A stretch of 64,000 nucleotides of DNA from Vulcanimicrobiota bacterium. Its GTDB lineage: Bacteria > Vulcanimicrobiota > Vulcanimicrobiia > Eremiobacterales > Eremiobacteraceae. Positions 10,454-55,439 of the stretch are shown here, piece by piece. A program made the position numbers and the translations under genes. Position 1 is the stretch's first letter; every line of letters begins with the position of its first letter. Where the stretch lies: the NCBI GenBank assembly GCA_013290125.1, contig JABCYQ010000006.1:1-64000 (forward strand). The letters run 5' to 3'. The notes beneath the pieces are model-generated. The model did not search any database. It was not told the origin of the DNA and saw only the letters and a program-made list of their open reading frames with translations.

Positions 10454-10468
10454 TTCTCCGACGCCATC

Positions 10469-10502
10469 TGAAGGGGCCGACGCTAGTCGGCCCACCTTTT
10501 TT
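10469..10502 (+). terminator. Intrinsic terminator of the rhomboid gene, made of the short GGCCGAC palindrome
   Basis: An 8-bp stem (10474-10481 with 10486-10493) and a GCTA loop are followed by ACC and six T. It belongs to the CTGAAGGGGCCGAC family of palindromes found throughout the window. Confidence 0.75.
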
Positions 10503-10510
10503 CTTCACGA

Positions 10511-10801
10511 CCTCATGCGGCGATGTCTGCGCCGGGGACGCGGCGGAACATCCGGATAGTCTACCTCCGCCGCTCGACTTCGGCGGCTCTCGCCGCCTCA
10601 GACTCCCCGGCTATCGACATCGCCGATGACGCCGTGGCGGCTGAGGCCGCCCGACGACATCCGCACGGCATGCTCAAGCGAGGCGTTGAACGAGGAGCGG
10701 AGCCATGGATGGCGAGAGCGACGAAGTGAACCGAGCGACTGAGCGAGCTGGATGCGAGCGAAAGAGTGTCCTCGCGGGGCATGCCGTGCGGATGTTGTCG
10801 G
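10511..10801 (+). repeat. Dispersed structured repeat, copy A (right end lost)
   Basis: This copy aligns along nearly its whole length with 54065-54381. The left end (CCTCA, then the GCCGGGGACGCGGCGG stretch) matches. The core at 10674-10778 differs from copy B at only about six positions, almost all transitions. The core is enclosed by arms 10651-10673 and 10779-10801: 23 pairs with one G-T. The right terminal inverted repeat found in copy B is absent; a short GGCCGACATAAAGTCGGCC palindrome follows directly. No protein of normal composition is encoded on either strand. Confidence 0.85.
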
Positions 10802-10826
10802 GCCGACATAAAGTCGGCCCCTTCAG
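10799..10826 (-). repeat. Short palindrome of the CTGAAGGGGCCGAC family
   Basis: GGGCCGAC(ATAAA)GTCGGCCCCTTCAG lies just past the end of the NHL lipoprotein gene read from the other side. It abuts the right edge of repeat copy A. A palindrome of the same family also follows copy B. Confidence 0.85.
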
Positions 10827-10845
10827 ATCGGCGAAGCGGCTTAGT

Positions 10846-11844: not shown

Positions 11845-12812
11845 CAGGGGCCCGCCGTCAGCCCGGTCGGTGCCGTCACGCCGACAAGCACGTTGGTCGG
11901 AACGCTGGCGGGCAAGAAGGGACGCTGAAAGACGAGCACACCGCTCAAACCGCCGGTCCCATTTGCGACGAACAAGCGATTGGTGTTATCGAGCGCAAGC
12001 GACTGCGGCGCCGACAACATGCTGAATGCGTTTGCGATCGTGTACGCCGGCAGGCTCGATGCCGTGAAGGGCGGCGAATACGCATAGATGGCGTTCACGT
12101 TCCGTGCAGCCACGTACAGATTGCCGAGAGCGTCGAACGCTACGCCGCGCGGGCACTGGAGCGCGCCCGGCAGCGTGATCGTCAGCGCAGGTACGCTATT
12201 CGGCATCAATGGTTGATCGAAGCGCACCACGGTGTTCGCCCCGCACTCGGCGATCCATAGACTTCCGTTACCGTCGAACGTCATCTGCGCCGGCTGGTTC
12301 AACCCCGAAAACGAAAACGCCGGCGCCGTGGCGTTGAGCAACGGCGGCGTGTAGACGTAGATGGTGCCTGAGAGCGCATCGCCGACATAGAGCCGCCCGT
12401 TTTGGTCGACCGCTACGGTGTTTGCGCTCGTGGGGTTCGGCGGAACCGCAGGAATGACATATACTGGCGTGCTGCTGCCCGTGATCGGCAAGTTGTAGAG
12501 ACCGACGCCCGCTGTGCCGGCTGCCGCGATCAGTGTGAAGCCGTTCTGCACCACGAGACCGCCTACGCACGTGCCGCCCGGGATCGGAGCTGAGACGAAT
12601 CCCGGAGTCTGGCTGAGGCCGGCCGGCGCCACGTAGTAGGCGATCGACGGCAGTTGTCCGCCGGACGGGCAGTTGCCGACATATAAGCCCTGCGGCGACG
12701 GCTGCGGAGTAGGCATCGGCAGGCTAGAGCCGCCCCCGCCCGAGCATCCGACGGCCGCGGCCGCAGAAAGGACGAAAACGATTCCCGCGAGAGACGCAAA
12801 TCGTCGCATCAT
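11844..12812 (-). CDS. NHL-repeat beta-propeller lipoprotein
   Basis: The protein has 322 residues with a signal ending in the lipobox AVGC, then SGGGGSSLPMPTPQPSPQG as linker. Propeller blades show repeated 'VAVDQNGRLYVGD', 'MTFDGNGSLWIAE', 'VAFDALGNLYVAA' and 'LALDNTNRLFVAN' elements. It is a paralogue of the gene directly downstream. The start overlaps the previous gene by 4 nt (ATGA). Presumably it is an accessory of the TonB receptor system; this is inferred from the operon only. Confidence 0.82.
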   Translation of the reverse strand: MMRRFASLAGIVFVLSAAAAVGCSGGGGSSLPMPTPQPSPQGLYVGNCPSGGQLPSIAYYVAPAGLSQTPGFVSAPIPGGTCVGGLVVQNGFTLIAAAGTAGVGLYNLPITGSSTPVYVIPAVPPNPTSANTVAVDQNGRLYVGDALSGTIYVYTPPLLNATAPAFSFSGLNQPAQMTFDGNGSLWIAECGANTVVRFDQPLMPNSVPALTITLPGALQCPRGVAFDALGNLYVAARNVNAIYAYSPPFTASSLPAYTIANAFSMLSAPQSLALDNTNRLFVANGTGGLSGVLVFQRPFLPASVPTNVLVGVTAPTGLTAGP

Positions 12813-21075: not shown

Positions 21076-21140
21076 GAAGGGGCCGACTTCATGTCGGCCC
21101 ACATGGTGAATGCTGGGCCGATATAAAATCGGCCCCTTCA
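21076..21140. repeat. Two facing short palindromes of the GGGGCCGAC family
   Basis: GAAGGGGCCGACTTCATGTC-type at 21076-21100 faces GGGCCGATATAAAATCGGCC-type at 21115-21140. The pair fills most of the gap between the regulator and the TauE/SafE gene and may form a larger fold-back. Confidence 0.85.
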
Positions 21141-25237: not shown

Positions 25238-25267
25238 TGTAGGGCGGATCTTTATGGTTCGGGAGCC

Positions 25268-25300
25268 TGAAGGGGCCGACTTCATGTCGGCCCTATTTTT
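25268..25300 (+). terminator. Intrinsic terminator of qcrAB, made of the short palindrome
   Basis: CTGAAGGGGCCGAC is followed by a TTCAT loop, GTCGGCCC and then TATTTTT. The stem and T-run fit an intrinsic terminator. The last bases overlap the stop codon of the convergent aquaporin gene. Confidence 0.75.
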
Positions 25301-28967: not shown

Positions 28968-29047
28968 GCCCTAACGCGCTCCTTCCGTGATTCATCGCTA
29001 GTATAGCACCGGTGCCAGGCGCGGGGCCCAAGGCTTTCGAACCAAAC

Positions 29048-30798
<1,751 letters not shown>

Positions 30799-30803
30799 GT
30801 AAA

Positions 30804-30912
30804 TGAAGGGGCCGACAAAATGAAGGGGCCGACTTTACGTCGGCCCTCGTTTGATTTCGTCGTTCTCGTAGTAGGGCAAGCATCGCTTGCCCCGGCGGAC
30901 CATAAAGGTCCG
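30804..30912. repeat. Cluster of three kinds of short palindrome after thiC
   Basis: It contains a broken TGAAGGGGCCGACAAA half, a full GAAGGGGCCGACTTTACGTC-type palindrome (to 30846), then GGGCAAGCATCGCTTGCCCC and GGCGGACCATAAAGGTCCG back to back (30870-30912). The cluster fills most of the space between thiC and the convergent secreted-protein gene. Confidence 0.85.
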
Positions 30913-35208: not shown

Positions 35209-35220
35209 CGCGCTAATCGT

Positions 35221-35248
35221 GGGGCCGACATAAAGTCGGCCCCTTCAG
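35221..35248 (+). repeat. Short palindrome of the GGGGCCGAC family after the HAF gene
   Basis: GGGGCCGAC(ATAAA)GTCGGCCCC is followed by TTCAG, a perfect 9-bp stem 12 nt past the stop. No T-run follows on the plus strand. Confidence 0.85.
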
Positions 35249-39468: not shown

Positions 39469-39600
39469 CTGAAGGGGCCGACACCGTATTTGAAGGGGCC
39501 GACACGGTATTTGAAGGGGCCGACACGGTATTTGAAGGGGCCGACTTTATGTCGGCCCACGTGGCGTTAGCCAGGGCCGATATAAAATCGGCCCCATCAG
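39469..39600. repeat. Array of short palindromes and half-palindromes upstream of the serS 3' end
   Basis: Three tandem 21-nt units TGAAGGGGCCGACAC[CG]GTAT are followed by a full GGGGCCGAC(TTTAT)GTCGGCCC palindrome and an inverted GGGCCGATATAAAATCGGCC-type copy. The tandem units lack the second arm, so they look like partial duplications of the left half. Confidence 0.9.
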
Positions 39601-43809: not shown

Positions 43810-43922
43810 GAAGGGGCCGGCTTTATGCCGGCCCGAGGGGCGTTAAAAAGGGGGCCGACATAAAGTCGGCCCCTTCAACGTCGACCCCTTCAAAGTCGGC
43901 CCCTTCAACGTCGACCCTTCAG
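43810..43922. repeat. Array of short palindromes and half units between convergent genes
   Basis: It contains a GGGGCCGG(CTTTATG)CCGGCCC palindrome, then GGGGCCGAC(ATAAA)GTCGGCCCC, then half units alternating between TTCAACGTCGACCCC and TTCAAAGTCGGCCCC types. The half units read in the opposite sense to those at 39469. Confidence 0.9.
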
Positions 43923-50111: not shown

Positions 50112-51560
50112 ATGCAACACACGCGGCGCGCCACCGTGGCCGCGCTTTTGCTCGTTTTGATCGCCGCGGCGCCTCAAGCGTCGCGCGCCGCTACCGCAGT
50201 TCAGCCCGCGCAGTCGTTTGCTGCTGCGACCGATACTGCCGGCCAACGAACCGACGGGTTGACGTATCGCGTGATCGGCGGCGGCGCGTCGCCAACCGAA
50301 GCGGTCGAGATATGGCTGCGCTGTCCGGCGAATGGCTATGACGGTCAACATCCTGGCATCGCGCGGTTGGCGGCGCTGTCGATCGTCGAGTCGAAAGCGC
50401 ACGGCTTCAGCATCCGCGACATCGCGCGTGACAACGGCGGCGCTGTCGCCATCCAAGTTTTTCCTGCCGCAACGGAGATCGGCATCGTCGTCCCCGCCTA
50501 TCTCGCCGGCGCGGCACAAGAGGCGTTGCTGAGCGACGTCCTCCATCCGCAGCTCGATGATGCAGCGTTTAAGGACGGTAAGCTGCGATTGGCCGAAGAG
50601 CTTGCGATCGCTGCGACGCAACCAGACAATCAGTTGGGCGAGCGTCTCTTCGGTGTCATGTTCTCCGGCGGACCTTACAGCTCGTCGACGTATGGTTCGG
50701 CGACCGACATCGCGTCCGCGACGATCGGCGAAACACAGTCGTTCGCGAGCCAAGCGTATCTGCCGAGCAATGCGATCGCCGCGAGCGCGGGTCTTGGCGG
50801 GTCCGATGCCCTTGGCGAGATCGTCACGTCAGGATCCTCGGCCGGCGCTACTTCACCCGCGCCGAGCGGTCCCAGGCTTCCCGCTTCGACGCTGCGCACC
50901 ACCTTTGCGCCTGCGACCTTGCCGAGCGGAGTCACGCACGGCGTCAGCGCGGTCGCGTTGGGTTGGCCAGGCCCTGCGATCAGCGACGAACGCGCGGCCA
51001 CCGCGATGGATTTTCTCTCCGACTATCTGATGAGCGAAACGACCGGCACCGTCACGAAAGCGCTGACGGCGGCCCAGCCGAATTCGCAGTTCGACGGTCA
51101 GTTCATAACGCTCGAAAATCCCGGCATCATGTTCGCTGGGATATGGGGCGAGGATTTGGACCGTCAGGCGGCAGTCGACATGATCCGCGCAGCGGCCAAG
51201 CGCGTCGTAGACGCGCAGTTGAGCGACGCGGAATTCGCCCGAGCTGAACTCGCGTACCGCACCCACCTGTTGCACGATATGTCCACGCCGCAATCGCTTG
51301 CCGACAACCTCGGCTGGTACTTCGCACAAGGCGCCGCCGCCTACACGCCCGCCGCGTTGATGCTCGGCAACGGCGACTACCTGTCGTCGGCAGATTCGCT
51401 GACGCCTGCGTACGTGCACGACATCGCCCGCCGCTACCTGACAGCAGAACCCGCGATGGTCACGCTGCCGGAGACGAACGGCTCAGTCGCATTTCGCGCC
51501 GGCATGACTGAAGGGGCCGACGTTAGTCGGCCCATCCAACGATTTTTTAAGGGTCTCTAA
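50112..51560 (+). CDS. M16-like (insulinase family) secreted protein lacking the zinc motif, first of a pair
   Basis: From the ATG at 50112 the protein has 482 residues with signal RRATVAALLLVLIAAAPQASRAA. The fold is M16-like: two alpha/beta halves, the second starting near THGVSAVALGWPGPAISDE. The HXXEH zinc site expected near the N-terminus is replaced by GIARLAALSIVES, so it is predicted inactive. The last 18 residues (MTEGADVSRPIQRFFKGL) are encoded by a GGGGCCGAC palindrome with its T-run, that is, by repeat sequence. It is 12 nt upstream of a related gene. Confidence 0.75.
   Translation: MQHTRRATVAALLLVLIAAAPQASRAATAVQPAQSFAAATDTAGQRTDGLTYRVIGGGASPTEAVEIWLRCPANGYDGQHPGIARLAALSIVESKAHGFSIRDIARDNGGAVAIQVFPAATEIGIVVPAYLAGAAQEALLSDVLHPQLDDAAFKDGKLRLAEELAIAATQPDNQLGERLFGVMFSGGPYSSSTYGSATDIASATIGETQSFASQAYLPSNAIAASAGLGGSDALGEIVTSGSSAGATSPAPSGPRLPASTLRTTFAPATLPSGVTHGVSAVALGWPGPAISDERAATAMDFLSDYLMSETTGTVTKALTAAQPNSQFDGQFITLENPGIMFAGIWGEDLDRQAAVDMIRAAAKRVVDAQLSDAEFARAELAYRTHLLHDMSTPQSLADNLGWYFAQGAAAYTPAALMLGNGDYLSSADSLTPAYVHDIARRYLTAEPAMVTLPETNGSVAFRAGMTEGADVSRPIQRFFKGL
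51507..51548 (+). repeat. Short palindrome with T-run inside the 3' end of an M16-like gene
   Basis: ACTGAAGGGGCCGAC(GTTA)GTCGGCCCATCC is followed closely by GATTTTTTAA. It is the terminator-like member of the family, but translation runs through it to a stop at 51558-51560. Confidence 0.85.
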
Positions 51561-54064: not shown

Positions 54065-54381
54065 CCTCACCGGTCGATGTCTTCGCCGGGGACGCGGCGG
54101 ATCATCGGGATAGTCAAGGTCCGCCGCTCGACTTCGGCGGCCCTCGCCGCCTCAGACGCCCCGGCTTTCGAAATCGCCGGTGATGCCGAGGCGATGCGTC
54201 GACGGCGGCCGGCGCGGCATGCCCAAGCGAGGCGTTGAACGAGGAGCGAAGCCACGGATGGCGGGAGCGACGAAGTGAACCGAGCGACTGAGCGAGCTGG
54301 ATGCGAGCGAAGGAGCGTCCACGCGGGGCATGCTGCGCGGCCGTTGTTGGCCGCGTCCCCGGCGAAGACATCGACCGGTGA
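54065..54381 (+). repeat. Dispersed structured repeat, copy B (complete, with terminal inverted repeats)
   Basis: Perfect 32-bp inverted repeats at 54067-54098 and 54350-54381 bound a 315-bp element. Inside, arms near 54206-54223 and 54327-54343 pair around the core at about 54224-54326, which matches copy A at 10674-10778. The inner arms differ in sequence from copy A but still pair, with one bulge and a G-U. No transposase or intact reading frame lies in it. No clear target-site duplication is seen. Confidence 0.88.

Positions 54382-54476: not shown

Positions 54477-55439
<963 letters not shown>

Follow-up and report, generated by a model that had tools for sequence, protein, structure and literature searches.

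The element at 10649-10803 of the window (the whole 64,000-nt stretch of DNA analysed here) belongs to a previously uncatalogued family of hairpins that is restricted to one bacterial class. Each copy places a branched, conserved tip made up of two hairpins on a stem of 25–60 bp whose sequence is specific to its locus. It is well supported that the plus strand folds, the two hairpins topping a stem of about 30 functional base pairs, and that this fold is under selection. What the fold does is less certain. The reading that we tentatively prefer, though it falls a little short of probable, is that of a dispersed structured RNA which carries paired CsrA-type hairpins on a long stem, is transcribed, and binds CsrA.

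In the window, the element (copy A) is built on a 25-nt inverted repeat that is 96% complementary and has 105 nt between its arms (Table 1). The first-pass annotation had counted 23 pairs with one G-T in these arms, which is exact on direct reading. It had also noted that the arms diverge far more than the core between copy A and a second copy in the window, copy B, yet pair in both, and this is borne out. The differences between the two cores, put at about six, come to seven sites in our own count. The statement that no reading frame is kept is acceptable with a qualification: mechanically called open reading frames do cross the region, but the copies differ by indels and by stem replacement. 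The plus strand folds at -89 kcal/mol as compared with -63.9 ± 4.1 kcal/mol in dinucleotide shuffles (z = -6.1). In copy A, the GGA of the P2 hairpin lies at 10707-10709.

Positions 10511-10801 had been taken as one element. This view has to be given up, since 10511-10645 (domain 1) is a separate repeat domain outside the widespread element. Domain 1 is joined to the element in the source genus only, and it is regarded as a separate repeat because family members without the core still match its left half on its own. A 16-nt inverted repeat (10466-10481 / 10813-10828) brackets domain 1 and the element. The orthologous empty site in G001 has a palindrome similar to the one at 10466-10502, and the orthologous site of copy B in G002-G006 is without the element.

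Table 1. Parts of the element, its surroundings and the second copy in the window.
Feature	Position	Strand	Basis
Outer palindrome ATCTGAAGGGGCCGAC..GTCGGCCC followed by a T-run; terminator-like hairpin of the upstream rhomboid gene	10466..10502	+	direct reading
Domain 1, separate palindromic repeat hairpin	10511..10645	+	fold -72.5 kcal/mol, z = -4.7
P1 left arm, locus-variable stem	10649..10673	+	inverted repeat, fold
P1 inner strand GCGAGGCG, partner 10767-10775, bulged T	10678..10685	+	fold; covarying helix 2
P2 hairpin, G-C pairs split by GA/GA internal loops, tip GCC-ATGGAT-GGC	10691..10725	+	covariation (helices 3-6)
P3 hairpin, loop TGGAT, closing pair C-G, GGA at 10750-10752	10742..10760	+	fold
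P1 inner 3' strand TGTCCTCGC	10767..10775	+	covariation, fold
P1 right arm	10779..10803	+	inverted repeat, fold
Inverted outer palindrome GGGCCGAC-ATAAA-GTCGGCCCCTTCAGAT	10800..10828	-	inverted-repeat reading
Copy B (domain 1 and core), between a glycosyltransferase gene and the gene at 54477	54075..54350	+	second copy in window

The window holds other structured sequences. Near-identical solo palindromes of the form CTGAAGGGGCCGAC-TTTA-GTCGGCCCC lie at 21076-21140, 25267-25293, 30821-30846, and 35219-35248, with further ones of this type at 39530-39600, 43810-43907, and 51508-51534; they are apparently a sequence-conserved terminator or REP of the source genus. A TPP riboswitch scores above its gathering score at 29043-29152, and a tRNA lies on the minus strand at 859-945.

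The first-pass annotation had made its claim of a selected fold depend on the existence of further copies and on arms that covary in a larger alignment. Copies are plentiful: there are about 19 in the source genome, where 18 nearly complete ones and 2 partial ones were counted, and a search of 60 relatives extends the core to further families of the class, where the arms are wholly different but still pair. A first covariance model, built from 28 sequences, detects the element in 82 of the 117 genomes of the class; outside the class, it gives a marginal match in one of 32 other genomes of the phylum. With a second model, built from 104 copies, the element is found in 87 of the 117 class genomes, in at least 692 copies. 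These positive genomes have 1–25 detected copies each, numbers that are lower bounds since scoring extends to 30 candidates per genome. In one genome (G029), the copy pairs L037/L193 and L190/L221 have the same core on unrelated arms of 30–35 bp. Plasmid, phage, and viral collections contain no match to the element.

The consensus structure has three parts. P1 is the long stem, with a bulged T close to its inner end. P2 is a hairpin of short G-C helices interrupted by GA/GA and GRA/GAGA internal loops, which we infer to be consistent with sheared G.A pairs, and its tip reads GCC-A(N)GGAU-GGC. P3 is a second hairpin with a variable stem. Among 104 aligned copies, 96.2% of cells are paired and two-sided changes occur at 22 of 25 pairs. 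The arms do covary in this larger alignment: the covariation score is 0.816, as compared with 0.184 ± 0.008 in shuffled and at most 0.135 in slid alignments. P2 covaries on its own (0.245 versus 0.045).

Covariation of the arms alone is no proof of selection because template switching, published as a mechanism that yields perfect as well as compensated RNA stems (PMC8794818), rewrites both arms together. The orthologues L249 and L290, with flanks 90–95% identical, differ by a coordinated 4-nt indel in both arms, and L261 and L312, with flanks 96–97% identical, differ in three compensated pairs and one G.T. G055 and G073 have the outer arm of the msrA-side locus in common and differ in its inner arm and core subtype. 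Arms that are specific to a locus and change in concert are most readily accounted for by template switching from one arm to the other. The view that these are neutral palindromes kept perfect by template switching, with covariation that is mutational and functionless, can point to these coordinated indels, to the speed with which orthologous arms change in pairs, and to a published mechanism (PMC8794818). We hold this view to be very improbable. The conserved loop, the purine internal loops, and the retention of the tip throughout the class speak against it, and it is already strained by an asymmetry of G.T over A.C that is limited to the inner 30–40 bp.

This asymmetry identifies the selected strand and the functional length of the stem. 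In palindromes that act as duplex only, G.T and A.C mismatches are expected to be equally common. Outside the model columns, the G.T:A.C ratio is 39:6 at 21–30 bp from the inner end (p 5e-7), 21:9 at 31–40 bp, and 18:23 beyond 40 bp, where the bin may include spurious pairing. The ratio inside the model columns (119:10) is left out as evidence, as the model itself favours G.U. An excess of G.T on one strand means that the fold of the plus strand is selected over about 30 bp, and it is well supported that the selected fold is single-stranded, namely RNA or, less likely, ssDNA. The G.T excess and the GGA loops fall on one and the same strand, and the direction of the excess does not depend on how the flanking genes are oriented. 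It is the strand asymmetry, the covariation of P2, and the conserved loop that carry the claim of selection. The proposal of a fold under selection, made from copies A and B, is largely upheld by covariation and the G.T excess; arm covariation cannot be its sole proof, given template switching.

The loops of the tip look like CsrA-binding sites. CsrA and RsmE recognize an A(N)GGAX loop with a C-G closing pair, in which the N is dispensable (PMC4005645), and the CsrA site is described as a GGA in a hairpin loop, with the SELEX consensus RUACARGGAUGU (PMC7652899). The P2 loop has a GGA in 101 of 104 copies, mostly as A(N)GGAU closed by C-G, a conservation measured on copies that were collected with a model containing that loop. 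Both AYGGAY and AGGAU forms are present in the family. The P2 stem around the GGA varies (GCC/GGC, GGC/GCC, GAC/GTC, CTC/GAG, ACC/GGT). P3 loops carry a GGA in about 65 of the 104 copies, and about a third are without it, for example CGCACGATGCG in G029. Apical loops hold 1.76 GGA per core versus 0.72 in dinucleotide shuffles (p 3e-16), and 69% of the cores have at least two GGA loops, the P3 loop being variable.

The hosts mostly encode the putative partner. The source genome has a CsrA (Pfam E 2e-24) with L4 and R44 present on direct reading, and the relatives of this protein include the RNA-bound RsmE 2jpp. CsrA is encoded in 93 of the 117 class genomes, and it is present in 75 of 87 genomes with the element versus 18 of 30 without it (p 0.004, phylogeny not corrected for). 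Among well-sampled genera, 25 of 26 with copies have CsrA versus 6 of 13 without copies (p 7e-4, likewise uncorrected for phylogeny, and a single loss may be common to several genera). An exception is genus g32 (G054, 97% complete, and G086, 90%), in which each genome has two copies and CsrA is not found. Many CsrA-bearing genomes are without the element, for example most of genus g22.

The element can be set beside several known systems. Rfam 15, searched over the window, offers no family at or above its gathering score for the element; permissive searches yield sub-threshold matches only, of which those to the miRNA precursor models are generic long-hairpin matches. TwoAYGGAY and the reverse strand of Bacillaceae-1 are predicted CsrA-binding RNAs (PMC4333381). 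Like the element, TwoAYGGAY (RF01731) has a pair of hairpins whose loops are of the AYGGAY type; one stem contains GA-rich internal loops, and the outer stem is poorly conserved (PMC4333381). Unlike TwoAYGGAY, the element is multi-copy and dispersed, has locus-specific stems of 25–60 bp, and occurs in one class only, and the TwoAYGGAY model finds no match in three cores even at E 10. The reverse strand of Bacillaceae-1 (RF01690) similarly shows paired CsrA-motif hairpins opposite to the strand of the Rfam model (PMC4333381). One copy of the element weakly matches Bacillaceae-1 on exactly the opposite strand (E 0.09, 19.1 bits, gathering score 35), although the overall shape of the element differs. 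The antagonist RNAs CsrB/CsrC and RsmX/Y/Z share GGA hairpins with a C-G closing pair; each of them comes from a single locus and has a terminator and many sites, whereas the element is a repeat whose copies would each offer two hairpin sites.

REP/BIME and CGTC-tagged palindromic repeats resemble the element in being intergenic, palindromic, dispersed, and often in inverted pairs. They are 20–40 bp long with a family-specific stem sequence (PMC3733652). In contrast to REP/BIME, the stem of the element is locus-specific and longer, its tip is branched, and it has no association with RAYT. Second copies in inverted orientation, usually weaker, are located about 150–200 bp away at L260, L324, L274, L325, L293, L258, L263, and L273; inverted pairs at this spacing are a BIME-like arrangement. 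In G017:C10, one copy (L214, ~12261-12436) is tandemly duplicated with a 139-bp period. The atpG-atpD intergenic region, which on direct reading carries different element subtypes in several species (L290, L249, L041, L334, L314), is possibly a recurrent site.

Dispersal in many copies, empty sites in relatives, frequent location at contig ends, inverted pairs 150–200 bp apart, and a strand-specific fold regardless of gene orientation would all suit a non-autonomous mobile element (MITE- or REP-like) that has no host function, the single-stranded hairpin being moved by an enzyme whose recognition feature, always on one strand, is the conserved tip. This explanation is possible but rather unlikely. 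Y1/RAYT transposase (TnpA_REP) occurs in 13 of 117 genomes, mostly not the copy-rich ones, and reverse transcriptase in 11 of 117; neither is associated with the element. A RAYT-linked REP and a relative of group II introns or retrons were each rejected on this lack of co-occurrence. The single Y1 transposase-like gene of the source genome (G000:C26:289-549, L371) has no link to the element that we could find. Moreover, with locus-specific arms, the G.T excess needs selection after insertion at each locus, and neither CsrA-type loops nor co-occurrence with CsrA are predicted for a mobile element. The empty sites are too diverged to define a target-site duplication, the MITE criterion; one query with concatenated flanks covered four loci. 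Insertion into pre-existing palindromes is not supported, as two empty sites in relatives are without a matching palindrome. By estimate, insertion sites common to different genera are at about chance level. At sites without the element in relatives, L338, L343, and L348 are short repeats CATCCTGAGCGNAGTCGAAGGATG; these likewise present the GAGCGNAG motif on a variable stem.

The copies have a preferred genomic position, according to gene calls that are approximate (codon-usage script). A stop codon is faced by 85 of 96 copies at a median distance of 19 nt, and only 3 of 80 copies are between divergent genes. It is this position that would favour an element of mRNA 3' ends, whether as a hairpin that blocks 3' exonucleases, as an RNase III site, or in bidirectional termination. 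Such a role is improbable. At least five T within 8 nt past the 3' arm are found in 1% of copies, a scarcity of U-tracts on which an intrinsic terminator was rejected, and a conserved, covarying tip is unnecessary for a 3'-end element. The excess of G.T also follows the strand of the element where the neighbouring mRNAs carry the opposite one: in copies antisense to an operon, G.T:A.C is 23:3 in columns 7–32, with 7:2 (not significant) in the columns outside the model. This weakens the idea that the fold is borne by mRNA only. Of the copies in tandem contexts, 32 have their plus strand antisense to the adjacent genes and 17 sense; readthrough of the genes in antisense contexts would not produce the GGA strand, a point against the reading preferred here.

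Under the preferred reading of a CsrA-binding RNA, the plus strand would be transcribed, and its two hairpins, with A(N)GGAU loops closed by C-G, would form a putative paired site for a CsrA dimer. The copies may titrate CsrA or recruit it locally, and the long stem may protect or position the tip. It is also conceivable, though on the whole doubtful, that the element is a selfish or domesticated repeat, transcribed into a CsrA sponge that is distributed over the genome and spreads via 3' intergenic regions of the class. Template switching would remodel the stems of such a sponge and leave its binding tip conserved.

If the preferred reading is correct, predicted CsrA-antagonist RNAs would extend to a little-studied bacterial class, and dispersed palindromic repeats would be joined with regulator-sequestering RNAs, which have so far been seen separately. 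With hundreds of copies that each have their own arms and all share one tip, the family lends itself to telling template-switch mutation apart from selection in RNA stems, and the comparison of G.T with A.C serves as a gauge of functional stem length.
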